IMG/VR virus record: IMGVR_UViG_3300025102_000012
Coordinates: 28,809 to 92,808 of that record
From: a virus
Reading direction: 5' to 3' (one strand)
Length of the DNA: 64,000 bases
Shown: piece after piece, positions 28,475 to 46,595 of the stretch
Position numbering within the stretch: the first letter of the stretch is position 1
Layout of the letters: the number at the start of each line of letters is the position of its first letter
Position numbers and translations under genes: made by a program
Notes under the pieces: generated by a model
The model's input: the letters and a program-made list of their open reading frames with translations, nothing else
Databases searched by the model: none
What the model was told of the DNA's origin: nothing

Positions 28475-29247
28475 CAATTACCACCGACATGGGGTGCTTT
28501 CATCAACATTCTATCGTTTGCTACTATCATCATAGGAAACTCATCTCTTACATAGAAGTTCAACAATTGGTCTTTCTTGAAGAAAGAATACAACGGAGAA
28601 CTAAAATCTAGAGTTGCTGATTCTCCAGTATTAAAAACAGCAGGTAAAACCTCTCTATACGAATTGGTGGCGTTGGTTGAAGAAGATATAACTACTTCTC
28701 CGTTATGGTAATTCAAATTATAAATTCCTTCACCGACTAATTCACAATTACGCAAACAACTTTGGAAGTCTTTTTGGTTTAAAGTAAAAGAACCTTCATA
28801 GTTTAAATTACTAAATGTGAAAAGAGTTGTTGGTTGTGGCTCATATCTTATGTGGCTAGTCATTTCAATTAATCTAGACAATGCTTCTTCATGTGGATGA
28901 TTAACTATCTTAGGAATACTAGCGGTTTTACTACCATTAGAAATAAGTATAAAATCACCAACAGTAATAGTTACAGTGCCATTAAATGATTTAAGGTACG
29001 GTAGAATAAGAGAAGCATCAGCATTACAGGTTCCTGTTTCGTGACCTTCTGTAGCAACCTCTAATGCTATCTTCAGCATAAAAGTAGAATCACCGTTTAC
29101 TAAAAGAAGTTGATTATCAACTAAATTAGCAGTAAAGACAGAACCAAAATTACCGGAACTAAATCCATTATTTGTTAGTCTCTTTCCTTTAACCTGTAGG
29201 CTTTCTAATGCTTCTTTAAGTTCAATACTATCTATTGTGAATCTCAT
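28474..29247 (-). CDS. pcn: PCNA-like sliding clamp
   Basis: This 257-residue protein has the length of archaeal PCNA, with its two-domain strand pattern (MRFTIDSIELKEALESLQVK, FTLNQKDFQSCLRNCELVGE) and a typical ending (FYVRDEFPMMIVANDRMLMK). A trimeric ring would tether the polymerase, ligase and XPF-like nuclease. It overlaps both the polymerase gene and the upstream ATPase gene by 1-4 bases. The C-terminal G-G-N is explained by the ribosome site of the next gene rather than a peptide signal. Confidence 0.82.
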   Translation of the reverse strand: MRFTIDSIELKEALESLQVKGKRLTNNGFSSGNFGSVFTANLVDNQLLLVNGDSTFMLKIALEVATEGHETGTCNADASLILPYLKSFNGTVTITVGDFILISNGSKTASIPKIVNHPHEEALSRLIEMTSHIRYEPQPTTLFTFSNLNYEGSFTLNQKDFQSCLRNCELVGEGIYNLNYHNGEVVISSSTNATNSYREVLPAVFNTGESATLDFSSPLYSFFKKDQLLNFYVRDEFPMMIVANDRMLMKAPHVGGN

Positions 29248-39140: not shown

Positions 39141-40628
39141 TTATTCCTCCACTAATACTGCTACATCTGTTGAATAGAATAACTGTGCTATTGACATTGC
39201 CGCTAAGAAACTGTTCTTAGTAACTTTAACTGGGTCAAATACTCCGAATAGAGAAAGGTCACAAACTACTCCGGTAAGAGCATTAAAGCCTGTAGGGTAT
39301 TCTGTAAAGGGAATAAATTCAGTATTGCTATTTTCAAATAAAGTCTTATATGGAGCCGACATTGCTGTTTTAAGCCACATAGGAGCCTCTATGGACTTTG
39401 CACACTCCATTAGGGCTAGACCTCCACCAGTTACAATACCTTCCGATAAGGCCGCTCTAGTAGCGTTTAGAGCATCATCTAATCTTTCTTTCTTTTCTAG
39501 CATTTCCATAGAAGAAGAAGCACCAACTCTAATAGTTGCTACTCCGCCTTTTAATCTAGCAATTCTTGATTTAATCCTAGCAGACTCAAAGCCTTCCATT
39601 GTTTTCAATAAGCCTTTCAAAGATTCTATTCTTTCGGAAGTATCTCCTTTAGCACCAATAACTATTGTTCTTTCTTTGTGGACTTCAATCATTTCACAGT
39701 TACCAAAATCAGTTTCCTTGAAAGAAGTAGGTCTATCTTTACTTTCTTCAGTGAAGATAGTTCCACCAACCATAGCCTGTATATCTGCTAACTCATCTAG
39801 TTGTTGGTCGCCAAAATTAGGGGCTAAGCATACAACACACTCAACAGTTTTATTCATGATATTCATTAGTAAATTGTTAAGGGCTGAACCGTCCATTCCT
39901 TTACAAAAGATAACTAGAGGTCTATTAGTGGTAGCAGCATGTTCTAACATAGGAAGTAGGTCTTTGAAGTTTCTAAACTTTAGATTAGACATAAAGATTA
40001 GAGGATTACTAAACATTGCTTTACCATCATCAGTATTAGCCATTAAATGACTGATATATCCTTCAGTAAGTTGCATGCCTTCTCTAACCATTAGTTCAGT
40101 TATATGAGATTTTGATTCTTCAACAGTAACTATTCCTTCTCTACCAACTTTAGATATGGCTTCTCCAATTAATGTTCCCAAAGCCATATCGTTATTTGCG
40201 GCAATGGTGGCTACATCTATTATTTCTTCATCTTTAATATCTAAGGCCAAATCATCTAATCTAGTTATCATCTCTACTTTGAATGATTCAAGAATATGAT
40301 ACACTTCGTGAGTAGTCATAGGTTCTTCTACACCAAACATATGATTACACAATGCTTGAGCAAGAATACAAGCGGTAGTAGTTCCATCACCAGAATTATC
40401 TTGTGCTTTACTTGCTAAGTTTTGAACCATTTGAATGCCCATTTGAACATAGGGGTCATCATGAGATATGTGTTTTGTTATTGTTACACCATCATTTACT
40501 ATAATAGGAGGATTACCTTGTAGAATAACTGTTTTGGCTTGTGGCCCCAAAGTTGGGCTTACCGTATTAGCAACTAAATTAATTCCTTGTAGTAGTTTTT
40601 CTTTTACTTCTTTTCCGTGTATAATCAT
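39141..40628 (-). CDS. groEL: Group I chaperonin (GroEL-like)
   Basis: I chose ATG 40628 behind GGTGGAAG (495 residues; cellular GroEL has about 545). ATP-site motifs are present (N-D-G-V-T-I near 46-51, D-G-T-T-T-A at 81-86), and so is the equatorial signature (LDDALNATRAALSEGIVTGG, then LALMECA). These are group I features, not those of the archaeal thermosome. The C-terminal Gly-Gly-Met repeat is absent. The apical domain is somewhat shortened. It probably folds an abundant viral protein. A GroES-like gene lies two genes upstream in the same operon. Confidence 0.88.
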   Translation of the reverse strand: MIIHGKEVKEKLLQGINLVANTVSPTLGPQAKTVILQGNPPIIVNDGVTITKHISHDDPYVQMGIQMVQNLASKAQDNSGDGTTTACILAQALCNHMFGVEEPMTTHEVYHILESFKVEMITRLDDLALDIKDEEIIDVATIAANNDMALGTLIGEAISKVGREGIVTVEESKSHITELMVREGMQLTEGYISHLMANTDDGKAMFSNPLIFMSNLKFRNFKDLLPMLEHAATTNRPLVIFCKGMDGSALNNLLMNIMNKTVECVVCLAPNFGDQQLDELADIQAMVGGTIFTEESKDRPTSFKETDFGNCEMIEVHKERTIVIGAKGDTSERIESLKGLLKTMEGFESARIKSRIARLKGGVATIRVGASSSMEMLEKKERLDDALNATRAALSEGIVTGGGLALMECAKSIEAPMWLKTAMSAPYKTLFENSNTEFIPFTEYPTGFNALTGVVCDLSLFGVFDPVKVTKNSFLAAMSIAQLFYSTDVAVLVEE

Positions 40629-40840
40629 TCTTCCACCAACCTTGTTTGTATTCCTCTCCACAAATCATAGGCTTGTTTCTTTTCGGGAATCGTAGTCAAT
40701 AATGTTTTTATCATCATTAGTAAAAACTCTAATTCACCAACCAAAAGCCTATCATCTATTTCTTCTCTAAATAAATCTCCATTTTCAGTAACATCAATCA
40801 TTCTTAACAAAATACTTTCATATAATTCTATATCGTTCAT
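40625..40840 (-). CDS. Small helical protein between GroES and GroEL genes
   Basis: This 71-residue acidic helical protein (DIELYESILLRMIDVTENGD, then LEFLLMMIKTLLTTIPEKKQ) overlaps both chaperonin genes by 4 bases. It may be an additional cochaperone or a folding client. No family is recognised. Confidence 0.55.
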   Translation of the reverse strand: MNDIELYESILLRMIDVTENGDLFREEIDDRLLVGELEFLLMMIKTLLTTIPEKKQAYDLWRGIQTRLVEE

Positions 40841-41052
40841 TCTAACACCGCCATTATCTTATCATAAGGAACAAACTTCATTCCGTCGTATTCTTGTATT
40901 GACCTTTCAGTGGAAAATATTACTACTTTACCTTCTAAATCGGGTTCTATTAAACAGGATAATACTCTTCCTACATTGTTTTCTTTCATCATAATCTTTC
41001 CACTACCTTGTATTTCAGGTTCTACAATTACATAATCATTCTTCGCTTTCAT
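40837..41052 (-). CDS. groES: Reduced GroES-like cochaperonin
   Basis: This 71-residue protein follows the GroES strand order in miniature: N-D-Y-V-I-V-E-P at the start, G-K-I-M in place of G-G-I-V, N-N-V-G-R-V-L-S, G-K-V-V-I-F-S, and the ending M-K-F-V-P-Y-D-K-I-M-A-V-L-E. Cellular GroES has about 97 residues; the mobile loop and roof hairpin are shortened. Only four genes' span separates it from GroEL. A lid role like phage T4 gp31 is likely. Short sequence limits certainty. Confidence 0.68.
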   Translation of the reverse strand: MKAKNDYVIVEPEIQGSGKIMMKENNVGRVLSCLIEPDLEGKVVIFSTERSIQEYDGMKFVPYDKIMAVLE

Positions 41053-41209
41053 TATTCTTCACCATACCGCCGTCTAATTCATTTTTTTTATTCAATTCTC
41101 TCTCAAACATTTCTAGAGCAGAATGAATAACCGGAGTTCCATTACCTTCGGCTATTATCTTTTTCATTCTCTTAATCGCCATCAAGTAATCGTGTTTGAA
41201 TACAGTCAC
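41036..41209 (-). CDS. Small helical protein
   Basis: A 57-residue frame starts at GTG 41209, overlapping the JAMM protein stop (GTGA), and overlaps the GroES-like gene by 17 bases. It is helical and basic in its first half (KHDYLMAIKRMKKIIAEGNG). No function is suggested. Confidence 0.5.
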   Translation of the reverse strand: MTVFKHDYLMAIKRMKKIIAEGNGTPVIHSALEMFERELNKKNELDGGMVKNNESEE

Positions 41210-41856
41210 TCTTCTTCACTCTCCGTCTCTTGACCCCAATATTGCATTCTTTCTAATTGACGATTACGATAGATTGCTAATTGTTTTGGTTTGGTTTGTT
41301 GCCACCAACCATAGTGTTCAACCCCACTACCTCCCAAAACAAATGCTTCTGTCATTAGAGGCTTCCATTGAGATACTGTTCTAATATCTACACCACTAAA
41401 ATAGGCGGCACCAAATGGATGAGTATGAGTCCAACATCTAATAGGAAGTTTCATTCCTACAGGAGGCTTCATTCCAAATTCTACATAGCCCGGAGAACCA
41501 GTAGTAACATAACAGTCATTATTTCCATCAATCACTACTTGCACTTCAAGACCCGGTAATATCTCGGTAGAAGCATGCCAAATAGCACCAAAGAATAGTT
41601 CGCTCTTATAGGATGTCATATCTACTGTGTGTCTATTATTCCAATCAACACCAATGCTTTTCAATTCTAACATTGCTTCTTCGACCCAAACATTTAGAAT
41701 ATGTTGTTCAGCCCGTTCTCTAGCCTTTTCTAAAGCCTCAAATTCCTTTTCTGCTTCAGCAATCTGTAAATCTTCAAGGTACTTATCATACCCATCATCA
41801 TCATGATAGCCTCTTTTTTCTTCTTCTCTTAAATTCCAATCACTTGTCTTACTCAT
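41206..41856 (-). CDS. JAMM/MPN+ metalloprotease (deubiquitinase-like)
   Basis: This 216-residue protein contains the JAMM zinc site: a Glu upstream (E86 in SELFFGAIWH), then H144-T-H146-P...S154-x-x-D157 (WTHTHPFGAAYFSGVD). The N-terminal 60 residues are a charged helix (EKEFEALEKARERAEQHILN). JAMM enzymes cleave isopeptide or peptide bonds after the diglycine of ubiquitin-like proteins. An E1-like gene is immediately upstream and a ubiquitin-like gene ending in G-G-Q-Q lies 4.5 kb further upstream in the same block, so a dedicated modification system is likely. Confidence 0.78.
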   Translation of the reverse strand: MSKTSDWNLREEEKRGYHDDDGYDKYLEDLQIAEAEKEFEALEKARERAEQHILNVWVEEAMLELKSIGVDWNNRHTVDMTSYKSELFFGAIWHASTEILPGLEVQVVIDGNNDCYVTTGSPGYVEFGMKPPVGMKLPIRCWTHTHPFGAAYFSGVDIRTVSQWKPLMTEAFVLGGSGVEHYGWWQQTKPKQLAIYRNRQLERMQYWGQETESEEE

Positions 41857-41867
41857 TTCTTTTCACC

Positions 41868-42431
41868 TCACATATTAATTACTTCATAATCCTTAACTGT
41901 CTCATTATCTTGAAACCATCTTTGAATCCATTGTGCGCCCAATCCTGCAATTGCCACTTGCATAAAATGAACTCCTTCTGTTGAACCATCCCATGTTTCT
42001 CCTTGACAACTAAACGAACCATCCTTTCCTGCTAAAAGCGTATCATACATCTTAGGGTCTGCTTTATGCGACACAAGTGCGGCATTCCTACCTTGCGCTC
42101 TCAAATCAAGCCATTTAATATTTGTGTTGTATAAAGTTCTTCTAACTGATAAATTATCTACACAACAAATAACCAAGTCATATCCTTTCATTTGTTTTTC
42201 TGTTAGAATAGGATATTGAGAACCACCCATTACACTACGGTATTTATTACCCATAACCGATGCTTTGTTTTCTCCTACATCATCAGCACTAAAGTTTTGA
42301 TATGGTAAATTTTTATTTTCTACCTTATCAGGGTCTGCTACTGATATGTTATACAATTCTACTTTATCTAAAAGCGGTAACAAGAAACTCCCGATACCAC
42401 CTGCTCCAATTATTAATATTTTTCTTTTCAT
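41868..42431 (-). CDS. E1-like ThiF/MoeB family adenylyltransferase
   Basis: I chose ATG 42431 behind GGGAGGAA (187 residues). The Rossmann motif is G-A-G-G-I-G-S at 9-15. The acidic pair of the second strand is in VADPDKVENKNLPYQNF (D33, D35, N41), K56 follows, and D92-N-x-x-x-R97 closes the nucleotide site. C142 (SFSCQGE) is a candidate catalytic or crossover residue. It is shorter than full ThiF (about 250), lacking much of the C-terminal zinc part. It would adenylate the C-terminus of the ubiquitin-like protein. It lies next to the JAMM gene. Confidence 0.8.
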   Translation of the reverse strand: MKRKILIIGAGGIGSFLLPLLDKVELYNISVADPDKVENKNLPYQNFSADDVGENKASVMGNKYRSVMGGSQYPILTEKQMKGYDLVICCVDNLSVRRTLYNTNIKWLDLRAQGRNAALVSHKADPKMYDTLLAGKDGSFSCQGETWDGSTEGVHFMQVAIAGLGAQWIQRWFQDNETVKDYEVINM

Positions 42432-42433
42432 TT

Positions 42434-42763
42434 TTATTCCTCCCAATATGGGTCTAGTTTGTCATTAGGTAGCATATCCCAACTACCTTTCATAGAATGT
42501 TCAAACGATACATCCTCTACAAAATCAGGATTCTTAAGCAATAACAAGGGCTTGTGCCAATTATCATCCGCTTGCGCTTGTTCTATTACTTTGTTCATCT
42601 GTTCTGCTTTGTCATCGGGTAATTCTACCCAATAAACCATAGCGTGTCTTTGTCTATTTAGTCTCGCTCTCATGGTTATTGTCATTGGAGCATATCCTAC
42701 ACCTTCACATTCCATAAAAGATTCTAAACCGTGAGCATCTGCTATTCCACAATATGTTTTCAT
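42434..42763 (-). CDS. Unknown protein next to E1-like gene
   Basis: This 109-residue protein (MKTYCGIADAHGLESFMECE, then YWVELPDDKAEQMNKVIEQA) ends 3 bases before the E1-like start. It starts with a beta strand followed by C5 and C19. I do not see the H-P-N or active-site Cys pattern of an E2. Its position next to the E1-like gene makes it a candidate partner or substrate. Confidence 0.55.
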   Translation of the reverse strand: MKTYCGIADAHGLESFMECEGVGYAPMTITMRARLNRQRHAMVYWVELPDDKAEQMNKVIEQAQADDNWHKPLLLLKNPDFVEDVSFEHSMKGSWDMLPNDKLDPYWEE

Positions 42764-42764
42764 T

Positions 42765-42923
42765 CTAATCTCTCCTAATTATTCCTTTATCACTTTTGTT
42801 GGGGTCAAAGGTTTCCCCTGTAAATTTTGCTTGTTTTTCCCAACATTCTATATTGCACCAATTCCTACTATTGATAGTAACTGTTGTAAACTTTCTACAT
42901 CTTGGTCGGCTACATCTTCCCAT
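42765..42923 (-). CDS. Zinc-binding mini-protein
   Basis: This 52-residue frame contains two Cys pairs (CSRPRC and WCNIECWEK) in a small zinc fold and a helical tail (GETFDPNKSDKGIIRRD). The first pair has four residues between the Cys. It lies in a gap between larger genes and its start falls right after the preceding gene's end. Confidence 0.55.
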   Translation of the reverse strand: MGRCSRPRCRKFTTVTINSRNWCNIECWEKQAKFTGETFDPNKSDKGIIRRD

Positions 42924-42924
42924 T

Positions 42925-43131
42925 TTATTCACCTCTACTAATTATTTTCTTTTCTATCAATTCAGCGTAGTTATCCATCCAGTTTGCTACAACCTTTATT
43001 GATTCTCTTCGGCCTAAACCGAACTCCTCTCTCAAATATGGAGCAGAACCAAACATATTGGTTACTCCACTTTGCCGTAATTCTTCTAAATACACATAGT
43101 ATTCAATCCATTCTTCATTTATTCCTGTCAT
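42925..43131 (-). CDS. Putative helix-turn-helix protein
   Basis: This 68-residue protein is helical (EEWIEYYVYLEELRQSGVTN, then GLGRRESIKVVANWMDNYAE) with a G-L-G-R-R-E-S-I-K-V-V-A-N-W segment that fits a recognition helix. It overlaps the next HTH-like gene by 4 bases. Confidence 0.5.
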   Translation of the reverse strand: MTGINEEWIEYYVYLEELRQSGVTNMFGSAPYLREEFGLGRRESIKVVANWMDNYAELIEKKIISRGE

Positions 43132-43361
43132 TGTTTATTCCTCCATATTATATTGTTATGTATTTTACAAAATCCTGCTTTTTCATAATGAATTCTAAGA
43201 ATCATTTGTAATTGATTAGGAGATACATGCCCCTTTTTAACTGGTCTACCGTTTGCATTTTTAGCATTAGATAATCTTTCTTTAATTTCTGTTGTTGTCA
43301 ATTCTTCTTTATCTAACATTGACTTTATTTTTAGATGCGCCCATTTATTCTTTTTTGGCAT
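43128..43361 (-). CDS. Putative winged-helix DNA-binding protein
   Basis: This 77-residue basic protein has a helix-turn-helix-like core (LTTTEIKERLSNAKNANGRP, then SPNQLQMILRIHYEKAGFCK) and a strand that could form a wing. It may be an early regulator. Together with its neighbour it forms a pair of small DNA-binding candidates. Confidence 0.55.
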   Translation of the reverse strand: MPKKNKWAHLKIKSMLDKEELTTTEIKERLSNAKNANGRPVKKGHVSPNQLQMILRIHYEKAGFCKIHNNIIWRNKQ

Positions 43362-43363
43362 TA

Positions 43364-43477
43364 TTATTCCTCCTCTAATGGTTTAAGATTGTCAAATGAT
43401 TTTTGACCCTGTTTTCTAAACCGAAACTTTAGTTTGGCTTTCTTTAAAATTTCAGCAAATCTTTCTAATCTAAACAC
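43364..43477 (-). CDS. Basic mini-protein
   Basis: A 37-residue frame starts with GTG 43477 immediately after the MazG-like stop (TAAGTG). It is strongly basic and helical (RFAEILKKAKLKFRFRKQGQ). It holds the ribosome site of the next gene at its end (GAGGAGG). Confidence 0.45.
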   Translation of the reverse strand: MFRLERFAEILKKAKLKFRFRKQGQKSFDNLKPLEEE

Positions 43478-43801
43478 TTAAAACGCCTTCCCATGCATAA
43501 ATTCCCGATTCTTATTATAATCTAGTTTGGCCAGTAATGCTCCTGCTACATCTAAATCCTTACCAAAAGCATAATCCATAATGCGAATTATGGCATCTGC
43601 TAGTTCTTCTTCTACACTAGAAAACTCTAGAATTTTAGAAGAAGTGGGGTTGCCGTTTCTCATAGCCTCTAATGCTTCGCTTATTTCCGAATGCACCAAA
43701 GCCATAGCCTCTCCGTCATTTCTTTCTTCTTTCCAAAAGCCGTGATTTACAGCATTTTTATATATTATTTTGGCCACTTTATTCCATTCTTTTTCAAACA
43801 T
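43478..43801 (-). CDS. MazG-like nucleoside triphosphate pyrophosphohydrolase
   Basis: This 107-residue protein has two metal-binding helix motifs of the all-alpha NTP pyrophosphatases: E39-x-x-E42 (HSEISEALEA) and E66-x-x-D69 (VEEELADAIIRIMD). Length fits a single-domain MazG/dUTPase-like enzyme. Virus versions are thought to adjust nucleotide or alarmone pools. It lies directly downstream of the TFB gene. Confidence 0.75.
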   Translation of the reverse strand: MFEKEWNKVAKIIYKNAVNHGFWKEERNDGEAMALVHSEISEALEAMRNGNPTSSKILEFSSVEEELADAIIRIMDYAFGKDLDVAGALLAKLDYNKNREFMHGKAF

Positions 43802-43803
43802 TT

Positions 43804-44658
43804 TTATTCACCTATTTTATTTACATCTTTTCCTCTTAATTGTTTTACATTGGTTAAGCCCAATAGCGTTAGAAGTGATTTAGTTTGTAAATAGATGCAC
43901 TTCTCATCTATTTCTGCCTTTTCAGCAATTAAACTTCTAGTATATTCTCTAACAAATACATTAGAAGTTATCCAACAAATACTTGCATAATACGACCTGC
44001 TTTTCGTATAATTAGCATTTAATAAAATTTGCTCAAATCTAGTCAATACCTCAATACTTTGATTGTAAAAAGATAAGTCATTTGTTATCTTTACTAGAGT
44101 TCTTCTTAGATAAGATTCTGGATTTACAGGAGTATAATTTATTTTATTTTTATAAAAAGAATTAATCTTCCTAAGAATCTTTTTGACTAGTTTAGTTTCT
44201 ACTTGGAATTCTTTACAGACTTCTTTTAAAGAAACAGGATTACCTTGTTCCTTCAAAACATAATACACTATTGCTGTTGCTCTATTTTCATAGGTGTATT
44301 TTTTGAAAGAATCTAGCGAAGCATATAGTTCTAAATACACTTCTTCTATTCTTTCTTTGGCTTCTAAAGAAGAAGAAACATTACTCAGTACCATATTACA
44401 ATATATGAGTGCAGTTCTAATATGAGGAGGGGTTGCCGAATAGTTTCTTCTATTGTATTTAGAAGAACCTTTTCCAGTAATTATTGACCCTAAATTACCT
44501 TTATCCGAACTATGTTTCAGTTCACCTTTACCGTCCAATATGTGTACTGTTTCTTCAAATATTTCTTGAACTAAGACTAGGCCGCATTCGGAACATACTC
44601 TTTCTCCTAATCTTTCATCAAAGTAGTTTTCTTTACTTGAGCATTCTTCACAAATCAT
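43804..44658 (-). CDS. tfb: Transcription factor B (TFIIB-like)
   Basis: I chose ATG 44658 (284 residues), with the zinc ribbon at the start: C3, C6, C22, C25 (MICEECSSKENYFDERLGER, then VCSECG). After a linker with Ser/Gly (SSDKGNLGSIITGKGSSKYN; B-reader/linker region) come two cyclin-like repeats at about 90-180 and 190-280. Host RNA polymerase needs TFB with TBP to start transcription. A viral copy could direct it to viral promoters. No TBP gene is visible. The first ATG of the frame lies inside the preceding gene. Confidence 0.85.
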   Translation of the reverse strand: MICEECSSKENYFDERLGERVCSECGLVLVQEIFEETVHILDGKGELKHSSDKGNLGSIITGKGSSKYNRRNYSATPPHIRTALIYCNMVLSNVSSSLEAKERIEEVYLELYASLDSFKKYTYENRATAIVYYVLKEQGNPVSLKEVCKEFQVETKLVKKILRKINSFYKNKINYTPVNPESYLRRTLVKITNDLSFYNQSIEVLTRFEQILLNANYTKSRSYYASICWITSNVFVREYTRSLIAEKAEIDEKCIYLQTKSLLTLLGLTNVKQLRGKDVNKIGE

Positions 44659-45796
44659 CCATATCAATCCTATTTTCATTTTCATTATCTGTAATATACG
44701 AATTAATCGTATTAACTATTTTTATTGTGTGAGTGTCATTCATTAATGCTAATGCTCTACCGGCAAACTGGTCGCCAACAGGAGTATGATTACCCATATT
44801 ATCTATGCAGATAGAACCTCTCCAACCGCATTTACCGAAATTAAACTCATCAGTTTTGTTGCCGTCATCATCATATACATAATTTTTTTCGGGTTGCCAA
44901 ATATAAGTAGATACTGCTTGATTAGCACTTTTACCTTTATATTCTAACTTCCAATCGAATTCCCTTCCTCGGACATATAGCGTTTGTAGTTTATCTTCTT
45001 TATAATTGGCTCGTAGTTTGCTAGGGTATTGTGCTAACATTTCTTGTACTAATTCATATGCTTTCTTTTCAACAATATCTGCTTTTCTATTTTGTTTTAG
45101 AAAGGCAACTAAAACTTTCAAATCAGATTCTGATGGAAATTTACCCATTAACCTATAATAGAACTGTTTTGGAGAAGTATATTTCCAAGAACAATTCTTG
45201 GTGTTTTTGGTATCAATATAAAAACTAGAATACTTTATTAGTTCTTTAATAGAAATAGAACCCCAAATACCATCTCCTATCTCTATGGCGCATTCATCGG
45301 GGGATATTTGTTTTACATTCAAACGAACTTCGTGTTTTACAAAGTCACTATAAAACCAATACGGTAGTCTATTTTCAATGACATATTTGACTACTTCGGG
45401 TAGTTTAGTAGTTTGATAAAGATATGGCATTAGTTTAAGTGGGTCTTTTTCAAAACAACTTTTGAATAAAACTCTTGCTAAGGCATGACATAATTCATCC
45501 ATTAGCATAATTTTGCCATTAATATAGTACCTAGACGATTTTTGGATAACGAATGGTGTTTCTCCTATCATTAGGGTAGTCGTTCCTTCCGGAATGCCAT
45601 GAAAAAACTTTTGTGTGCCTCTTTTATTTTTAAAGGAACTCAAAAAGTGTTGATAAATAGACTGGTGAATAGGGTCTTTAGCGCTAACTGGATGAATTGT
45701 TGCAATTGAACCATGTATGTTCCTACCAACAATATTTAGTTCAGTTTCCCAATATTCATTTGCTCCGTCATGTGGTTTTCTAATTCTTATTTTCAT
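44648..45796 (-). CDS. Unknown 382-residue protein
   Basis: This protein shows no family that I can name. Features: N-terminal basic beta (KIRIRKPHDGANEYWETELN), a central long mixed region, and a C-terminal block C-G-W-R-G-S-I-C-I-D-N-M-G-N-H-T-P-V-G around residues 328-346. G-S-I-C-I-D superficially resembles the G-x-I-C-L-D of E2 enzymes, but the preceding H-P-N is missing. It lies between the ubiquitin-like gene and TFB, which makes a connection worth testing. It overlaps TFB by 11 bases. Confidence 0.6.
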   Translation of the reverse strand: MKIRIRKPHDGANEYWETELNIVGRNIHGSIATIHPVSAKDPIHQSIYQHFLSSFKNKRGTQKFFHGIPEGTTTLMIGETPFVIQKSSRYYINGKIMLMDELCHALARVLFKSCFEKDPLKLMPYLYQTTKLPEVVKYVIENRLPYWFYSDFVKHEVRLNVKQISPDECAIEIGDGIWGSISIKELIKYSSFYIDTKNTKNCSWKYTSPKQFYYRLMGKFPSESDLKVLVAFLKQNRKADIVEKKAYELVQEMLAQYPSKLRANYKEDKLQTLYVRGREFDWKLEYKGKSANQAVSTYIWQPEKNYVYDDDGNKTDEFNFGKCGWRGSICIDNMGNHTPVGDQFAGRALALMNDTHTIKIVNTINSYITDNENENRIDMDDL

Positions 45797-45801
45797 TTAT
45801 A

Positions 45802-45963
45802 TCACATCATATATACATTTTTATTATCTTTGTTGCATTTTTCATGCATTTCTATTTTTATTTCTTGTGGAGTGTAAAGTTTGCCGCCACACACTCGACA
45901 GTGCGTAGCAACCATGTTATTTTTTCTGTTATTTAAAATATGCTTAGGGTCTTTTTCTTTCAT
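45802..45963 (-). CDS. Zinc-finger mini-protein
   Basis: This 53-residue frame contains a C-x2-C pair (HCRVCGGKLY) and a later H-x3-C (EMHEKCNKDN), a C2HC-type finger. The ATG overlaps the stop of the preceding gene (TAATG). No other motif is visible. Confidence 0.6.
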   Translation of the reverse strand: MKEKDPKHILNNRKNNMVATHCRVCGGKLYTPQEIKIEMHEKCNKDNKNVYMM

Positions 45964-46319
45964 TAGTATTCCCCAAATAAATAATCAATGTTTTTCTTTC
46001 TTTCGTTGCATATTTTACATTCTTTTTTACCATCTAATAAAACACAATTTTTTTCATGGTATTTTGATAGATGGTAATAGTAGTTTATTTTATTGTCAAG
46101 ATAAATACTAAATCCTTTATCTACGGCAAGCGGAACCTGCCAAAATATATCGTATAGTGTTGTCTTTAACATGAATTTTTTGTCTCTATCTGAGTAGTTA
46201 GAAGACATAATGGTGATGTTTCTTATTATATTTTTATCTTCTGCTTTTAATTCTCGCATAAATAAAATTGTTGCATCCAATACACCGCTATAAGGCAGTT
46301 TATTGAACACGATGAACAC
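45963..46319 (-). CDS. Unknown protein with C-terminal zinc knuckle
   Basis: This 118-residue protein (LDATILFMRELKAEDKNIIR, then SIYLDNKINYYYHLSKYHEK) ends with C-K-I-C (KECKICNERKKNIDYLFGEY). The H-x-x-K-Y-H-E-K-N-C and C-x2-C could together bind zinc, in a McrA/HNH-like or treble-clef layout. It lies downstream of a hairpin region that separates it from the ubiquitin-like gene. Confidence 0.55.
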   Translation of the reverse strand: MFIVFNKLPYSGVLDATILFMRELKAEDKNIIRNITIMSSNYSDRDKKFMLKTTLYDIFWQVPLAVDKGFSIYLDNKINYYYHLSKYHEKNCVLLDGKKECKICNERKKNIDYLFGEY

Positions 46320-46335
46320 CGAAGGGTTGGAAAGC

Positions 46336-46388
46336 CACTATCTAGGGTTAGGATAGTGACTCTCCACAACAAACAGAATAAATACTGT
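46336..46388 (-). terminator. Tandem hairpins downstream of the ubiquitin-like gene
   Basis: Two stems are visible: CACTATC 46336-46342 with GATAGTG 46352-46358, and AAACAG 46371-46376 with CTGTTT 46385-46390, the latter touching the stop codon of the ubiquitin-like gene. This 70-base gap is unusual in the tightly packed block. It could attenuate transcription so that the ubiquitin-like protein is made in excess over the E1 and protease genes. Confidence 0.4.
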
Positions 46389-46595
46389 TTATTGTTGACC
46401 TCCAACAATCGCAGGGGTTAAGTCTACTGATGTAACATCATCCCAATTAATTCCTGTAATCTCTTCTCTCGCTACCATTTCCCCATCAATAAAGCACCAA
46501 TGGGTTGGGTGTCGGTCTATCTGTTCAATTATCTCTTCTTTTGCGAGAGATAGCGTTGTGTGTCCTGTCTCGTTTAATATTCTTAATGTAATCAT
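46389..46595 (-). CDS. Ubiquitin-like (beta-grasp) protein with C-terminal GG-QQ
   Basis: This 68-residue protein has the beta-grasp order: strand (MITLRILNET), strand (HTTLSLAKEE), helix (EIIEQIDRHP), strands with D-G-E-M-V, and a last strand D-V-T-S-V-D-L-T-P-A-I-V running into G65-G66-Q67-Q68. The P-A-I-V-G-G ending recalls the ubiquitin-like domains of phage gpI and other bacterial/viral Ub-like proteins that occur with JAB proteases. The two residues after G-G would need removal, fitting the JAMM protein in the same block. The E1-like enzyme would activate it. Small size limits certainty. Confidence 0.62.
   Translation of the reverse strand: MITLRILNETGHTTLSLAKEEIIEQIDRHPTHWCFIDGEMVAREEITGINWDDVTSVDLTPAIVGGQQ

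Follow-up and report, generated by a model that had tools for sequence, protein, structure and literature searches.

The stretch of DNA analyzed here (64,000 nucleotides, positions 28,809 to 92,808 of the 92,808-base IMG/VR virus record IMGVR_UViG_3300025102_000012; hereafter, the window) carries, on its minus strand and within 5.4 kb, open reading frames (ORFs) for a small ubiquitin-like protein (Ubl), an E1-like adenylyltransferase and a JAMM metalloprotease, together with those for a 53-amino-acid (aa) zinc-finger-like protein, a 382-aa protein with an E2-like predicted domain, and the transcription factor TFB (Table 1). Taken together, these genes probably equip the virus with a self-contained cascade for conjugating and deconjugating the Ubl. 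An initial annotation of the window had already proposed the Ubl, E1 and JAMM genes as a modification set, and the three ORFs, the PAIVGGQQ end of the 68-residue protein, the E1 motifs and the JAMM motif are all present as it described them, its candidate catalytic C142 of the E1 (counted from the ATG) being Cys147 when the ORF is read from its TTG start.

The remaining gene content of the window includes a family B DNA polymerase (PolB) divided between two genes, an RFC-like AAA protein, a DNA ligase, a tail-tube-like protein and GroEL. By comparison with the family profile, the virus is a magrovirus (Magrovirales), as its split PolB, GroEL, TFB and archaeal replication genes fit the published profile of the magroviruses of Poseidoniales archaea, which have their own replisome, a two-part PolB, TFB and GroEL/GroES (PMC10768690); Poseidoniales is the presumed host order of these viruses.

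Table 1. Features of the ubiquitin-like module and its neighbors (positions within the window).
Feature	Position	Strand	Basis
Ubl, 68 aa, ending PAIVGG-QQ	46389-46595	-	ORF; predicted beta-grasp; invariant VGG
Di-glycine codons G65-G66	46398-46403	-	both Gly invariant, all four Gly codons used
Ubl tail QQ	46392-46397	-	variable, 0-2 aa in relatives
Zinc-finger-like protein, 53 aa, ATxCRxCG...H..C	45802-45963	-	immediately upstream of E2-like gene
E2-like protein, 382 aa	44648-45796	-	UBC-like predicted C-terminal domain; invariant Cys
UBC-like domain, residues 238-380	about 44657-45085	-	predicted fold
Candidate E2 catalytic Cys330 in GSICIDN	44807-44809	-	invariant in 45 viral rows and virus/host rows
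TFB (transcription factor B)	43804-44685	-	Zn_Ribbon_TF above Pfam cut-off; overlaps end of E2-like gene
E1-like ThiF adenylyltransferase	41868-42446	-	Pfam ThiF; 192 aa (TTG start) or 187 aa (ATG start, 42431)
Candidate E1 thioester Cys147 in S-F-S-C-Q	42006-42008	-	invariant in 43 viral rows; SCQ in 11 host E1s
JAMM/MPN+ metalloprotease, 216 aa	41206-41856	-	JAMM residues; Prok-JAB; AMSH-type PDB matches
JAMM motif HTHPFGAAYFSGVD	41386-41427	-	sequence; invariant H-x-H-x7-S-x2-D
GroES-like gene, 71 aa	40837-41052	-	named by position and look; without Pfam match
GroEL	39141-40661	-	Cpn60_TCP1 Pfam match; after JAMM in 99 fetched loci

The Ubl, E1 and JAMM proteins

The initial annotation supposed a beta-grasp fold for the 68-aa protein, and this is the fold predicted for it by AlphaFold (predicted local distance difference test, pLDDT, 87), with the elements ordered as bb-a-bb-(a)-b (strands 2-8 and 11-17, helix 19-28, strands 32-36, 39-41 and 56-61). 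Among the top VIA matches of the model are MoaD, ThiS, ubiquitin, bacterial Ubls and SAMP2 in complex with JAMM1, the best of them being MoaD (Z 6.0, root-mean-square deviation 3.7, 63 aligned residues), and the rows are nearly all ubiquitin-, Ubl-, MoaD- or ThiS-like, while Foldseek returned weak E-values (best 5e-3). All 59 distinct Ubl sequences have VGG followed by zero, one or two variable residues, even though the query patterns of the scan stopped at VDLTPAIV and left the GG itself out. By its fold and its GG end, the protein would seem to be a ubiquitin-like modifier, one which may become attached to targets.

For the E1-like protein, the Pfam ThiF model (PF00899) scores 60.5 bits against a cut-off of 28.1, and the GAGGIGS and DNxxxR motifs and the candidate Cys are in place; G14, G16, G17, G19, D38, D40, N46, K61, D97 and C147 show no or almost no variation among the aligned relatives. 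Its profile matches in the PDB include bacterial ThiF proteins, UBA5, Cap2 and the NEDD8 E1. The JAMM protein, in turn, keeps E104, H144, H146, S154 and D157 invariant or nearly so across 44 aligned rows, with Prok-JAB being matched weakly by 43 of the 44 members (best E 1.4e-4), the Pfam JAB model giving 14.6 bits for the window protein (below its curated cut-off of 25) and the profile reaching AMSH-type isopeptidases of the PDB at a marginal E of ~6e-4. Among the Ubl relatives, third codon positions vary three times as often as second positions (51% as against 17%), and this excess, along with the mixed glycine codons, the invariant VGG and the invariant E1 and JAMM signatures, indicates that the motifs of the three proteins are more than chance resemblances. 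In eight distinct Ubls, the GG forms the very end of the protein and leaves no tail to be trimmed, and yet these share their locus with an intact JAMM motif, which suggests that the protease probably does more than mature the tag and also deconjugates it.

The E2-like protein and conservation of the module

Sitting between the Ubl and E1 genes, the 382-aa gene probably provides the E2 piece of the kit. Its AlphaFold model (pLDDT 89) has a C-terminal part comprising a helix (239-256), strands 261-266, 269-276, 281-286, 295-308 and 314-329, then Cys330 and further helices, a predicted order resembling that of E2 enzymes, and the VIA rows listed for it are all UBC/UEV/RWD-like. Cys330, within the G-x-I-C-I-D-N motif, comes after strand 314-329 and before helix 340-352, which would be an E2-like placement of a catalytic Cys, and its spacing to the preceding strand in short-loop members is like that of canonical E2s. 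The initial annotation saw no clear E2 and named as candidates both this gene and the one adjoining E1; the former stands as an E2-like candidate, whereas the latter (109 aa) is present in just 7 of 115 loci and was dropped.

The small zinc-finger-like protein was matched in 107 loci, its CxxC..H..C pattern being kept among the sequences listed, and the median gap between its gene and the E2-like one is 5 bp; a part as an E3-like protein or adaptor would be speculative. In the fetched loci, the TFB gene comes after the E2-like one and before E1, and GroEL and the GroES-like gene (39141-41052, minus strand) come directly downstream of the JAMM gene.

Altogether, 115 related viral loci were fetched from contigs, some of which were included more than once, so that counts of loci are not counts of viruses. 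The order Ubl > 53-aa zinc finger > E2-like > TFB > E1 > JAMM > GroEL is seen in 99 of these, and the others are partial, mostly being cut by contig ends. In whole-record searches of 45 virus records, the Ubl, E1, JAMM and E2-like genes were all present in each of the 26 records that were 80 kb or longer, although these records were all found at least partly through the Ubl or E1, which biases the count for that gene, if not for its partners. Two records reached only through their DNA polymerase also have all four core genes, and a third one reached in this way has three of them, its contig ending near the expected position of the Ubl. Long records lacking the module (78 kb and 58 kb) raised the question of whether some magroviruses have lost it, and these were not counted as cases of absence because, judged by the position of their polymerase, they appear to end short of the module. 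The module thus consists of core genes of this magrovirus lineage; a complete set, which the initial annotation had thought unusual, is not so among these viruses, and no relative was seen with E1 and JAMM but no Ubl, save where the contig ends first. Three magrovirus-like contigs were encountered inside bacterial metagenome-assembled genomes (Maricaulis, Altibacter) and are probably binning errors.

A related system in Poseidoniales

When cellular genomes were scanned with the E1, relatives of ~30% identity came up in Poseidoniales, including one on a closed MG-II chromosome. In many of these host loci, a profile search places a Ubl just ahead of E1 and a JAMM either fused to E1 or following it, and several also encode a TFB-like and a large E2-like protein close by; the host Ubls end in GG plus one or two residues. 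Comparing viral and host profiles gave P values of 2e-16 for the Ubls and 2e-31 for the E1s, but only weak ones (2e-3 and 2e-4) for the E2-like proteins, which nevertheless have an invariant Cys and a GD..LxD pattern in common, and whose combined profile finds additional host members absent from its building set. (The same combined profile matched only coiled-coil envelope proteins in the PDB, and these matches were judged spurious.) Among 115 Poseidoniales genomes, E1 was detected in 57, Ubl in 55, the E2-like protein in 58 and all three in 50, a strong co-distribution (Fisher P ~1e-23 for each pair) that is to be read with the genomes of one order being related rather than independent, and of unknown completeness. 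With the E2-like protein, the homologous host system and the constant link to TFB, the system goes beyond the three genes initially pointed out.

Several peculiar gene arrangements were noticed in the host genomes: four Poseidoniales genomes have tandem poly-Ubl ORFs reminiscent of polyubiquitin, with two to four repeats each ending in GG; Ubl-Ubl-E1 fusions occur in two host loci (L234:480-1760 and L235:1042-2292) and a Ubl-E2-like fusion in a third (L237:1762-2859); and one host contig has several E2-like genes, a TFB, an AAA+ ATPase, a Ubl and an E1 side by side.

As to the origin of the viral set, the E1 tree joins the virus rows and three divergent viral-looking contigs from bacterial metagenome-assembled genomes into one group beside the host and Methanoperedens rows, with bacterial and crAss-like E1s placed elsewhere, although long branches make the fine placement unsure. 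A recent capture of the viral E1 from the host is not favored, since the viral rows are not nested within the host ones (the long branches apply here as well), and this speaks for an old virus-host split, so that the best reading of these comparisons would be that the viral set is an old sister of the host system. The Methanoperedens-type E1 relatives (three loci) lie beside a ~160-aa protein ending in KGKGG and an upstream gene of ~712-741 aa.

Proposed working, alternatives and known counterparts

From the genes, motifs, predicted folds, conservation, gene order and host homologs above, we infer a cascade in which the JAMM would trim the tail of zero to two residues from the Ubl and expose VGG, the E1-like enzyme would adenylate the terminal glycine and probably take the tag onto Cys147, and the E2-like protein would, via Cys330, hand it over to target lysines, perhaps with the assistance of the adjacent zinc finger, with the JAMM also removing or recycling the tag. 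The host fusions of E1 to JAMM, Ubl-Ubl to E1 and Ubl to the E2-like protein lend further support to this cascade. Most likely, the virus would use this cascade to mark proteins, its own or those of the host, and in this way remodel the infected cell. As targets, transcription initiation factors would be favored, being attractive because TFB is a constant neighbor of the module (which is linkage and not function), and their turnover would be a guess from that same linkage. A bolder proposal, which we deem unlikely, is that magroviruses and Poseidoniales share an ancient, undescribed Ubl system that includes poly-Ubl precursors and a separate E2-like family, and that the virus switches transcription with its version by tagging host TFB/TBP-type factors while its own TFB takes over.

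Several results weigh against a conjugation cascade. None of the known Ubl profiles was matched by the Ubl, whose best Pfam match is the Lon protease inhibitor PinA (E 1.4e-4, below the cut-off). Canonical E1 and MoeB enzymes have an Arg in an N-x-x-R-Q motif, and the viral E1 has an invariant Y49 in its place (a nearly invariant His in the host E1s). The 382-aa protein lacks the HPN tripeptide, with WQP or other residues instead, and no E2 family was matched by it in Pfam, NCBIfam, PADLOC or the PDB, whether as a single protein or as a profile; its top Foldseek match, UBCH5C, is weak (E 0.19), and its best VIA Z is a modest 5.6, where values below 8 fall into the caution zone of the tool and may reflect merely a common arrangement. 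Because of this Z, the fold evidence is suggestive and not proof, and because, moreover, the sequence searches do not reach E2s, the protein is named E2-like here and not filed in the E2 family. Neither an E3 nor a substrate was identified for the module.

That the 382-aa protein is no E2 at all, and the E1 itself or some other protein conjugates the Ubl, as in SAMPylation, for which no E2 is known, would account for the missing sequence match, the missing HPN and the modest fold score, yet it sits poorly with uniformly UBC-like VIA rows, with a Cys that is invariant in virus and host alike, and with the fusion of Ubl to the E2-like protein and their operon neighborhood in hosts, and we deem it unlikely. 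Less likely still is that the Ubl acts as a sulfur carrier, i.e., a thiocarboxylate in the manner of MoaD, ThiS or CysO from which the JAMM removes blocking residues, serving viral tRNA or cofactor modification or the like: the fold neighbors MoaD and ThiS, the ThiF/MoeB type of the E1 and the existence of ThiS/MoaD-JAB-E1 sulfur operons (PMC1779556) would all agree with it, but an E2-like protein with an invariant Cys inside the module makes sulfur transfer the poorer explanation, hosts fuse the Ubl to such a protein, and among the submitted genes lying between Ubl and JAMM, Pfam recognized no rhodanese or other sulfurtransferase. As for the PinA resemblance, the family concerned (PF10465, that of the T4 Lon inhibitor) is matched weakly by 28 of 45 Ubl members; a Lon inhibitor in place of a modifier is nonetheless highly improbable, given that the match in the window protein spans residues 8-53 only, the VGG end is invariant, the Ubl is co-conserved with the E1, JAMM and E2-like genes, and host homologs occur as tandem repeats each ending in GG.

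A serious alternative, or an additional use, is counter-defense, whereby the virus would antagonize the homologous Ubl system of its host, with the JAMM stripping host conjugates and the Ubl, E1 and E2-like protein competing for partners. The presumed host order does carry such a system, and the viral and host Ubl profiles match strongly; JAMM-like deSAMPylases have been proposed to serve Borgs in countering the tagging by their hosts, and in bacteria Ubl conjugation is employed against phages (PMC12660748 and its references). However, a full viral set with all of its catalytic residues constrained is more than removal needs, about half of the surveyed host genomes have no detectable homologs, and the exact host is presumed at the order level only, so as the principal role it seems somewhat unlikely.

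A conjugation cascade encoded by the virus itself would have one of its closest counterparts in the Ub/E1/E2/srfp/Rpn11 operon of Caldiarchaeum subterraneum, which likewise unites a tailed Ubl precursor, an E1, an E2, a small zinc protein and a JAMM (PMC5654768, PMC6043591), and whose Ub/E1/E2/Rpn11 cascade is functional in vitro, where maturation of the precursor and deconjugation are both carried out by Rpn11 (PMC5654768). The set described here, in contrast, is viral, its Ubl, E1 and E2-like proteins are far diverged, no RING protein was recognized, the E1 is a minimal ThiF domain, and the E2-like protein is devoid of HPN. The Haloferax SAMP system (SAMP, UbaA, JAMM) shares a GG-ending beta-grasp modifier, a ThiF-type E1 and a JAMM, although the UbaA model scores only 29.6 bits on the viral E1 (cut-off 450); the system is not known to have an E2. 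Haloferax TBP2, being modified by a SAMP-type linkage and degraded, provides an earlier example of a transcription factor being targeted (PMC4895103).

The bacterial 6A, Bil, Bub and CBASS-Cap2 systems also have E1, E2, JAMM and often Ubl, and PADLOC E1-E2 models match the viral E1 (best E 3.7e-10), as does Cap2 in the PDB; these are, however, host defense loci, many with an E2-E1 fusion where the virus has separate genes, and none of the PADLOC and NCBIfam models for the E2, Ubl or deubiquitinase of Bil/Bub/Cap2-type systems was matched, the viral E1 alone giving matches. The best NCBIfam match of that E1 is the ThiF of the PRTRC plasmid system, though far below the cut-off (50.3 bits against 144.75), and PRTRC cassettes also contain JAB-type proteins. 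In lambda-type phages, a Ubl in TAPI lies beside a JAB in TAPK (PMC1779556), albeit in a tail-assembly context and without an E1. Searches of the phage collection with the viral JAMM, E2-like protein and PolB gave no match. In three crAss-like phages, a ThiF-type E1 immediately follows a Prok-JAB protein (gp76/gp77 in crAss001), with unknown genes flanking the two; this pair is a possible parallel E1/JAMM system, differing in that its E1 is longer and groups with bacterial E1s in the tree, and that neither a Ubl nor an E2 was identified alongside it.

Sets of Ubl, E1 and JAMM, and parts of them in phages, have been known (PMC1779556), as have JAMM proteins of Borgs (PMC12660748), and an earlier survey listed a small number of different ubiquitin-type genes for a single MG-II genome (PMC4327156). 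The magrovirus family profile, on the other hand, leaves ubiquitin-like genes unmentioned (PMC10768690), and ubiquitin, ThiF and JAMM are absent as words from the other magrovirus papers checked, although they may have been noticed elsewhere; neither an archaeal virus whose core genes include a complete set together with an E2-like protein nor the related Poseidoniales system was found in the literature searched.

If the proposed cascade holds true, an abundant group of oceanic viruses would bring a full Ubl cascade into the cell within its core gene set. In that case, moreover, marine archaea of which little more than sequence data exists would have a Ubl system of their own, one that includes a divergent E2-like family as well as poly-Ubl precursors. 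The repeated link to TFB suggests a role in transcription, and the module would offer a compact, testable system for studying both what such tags do during infection and how ubiquitin-type pathways originated outside the known archaeal lineages.

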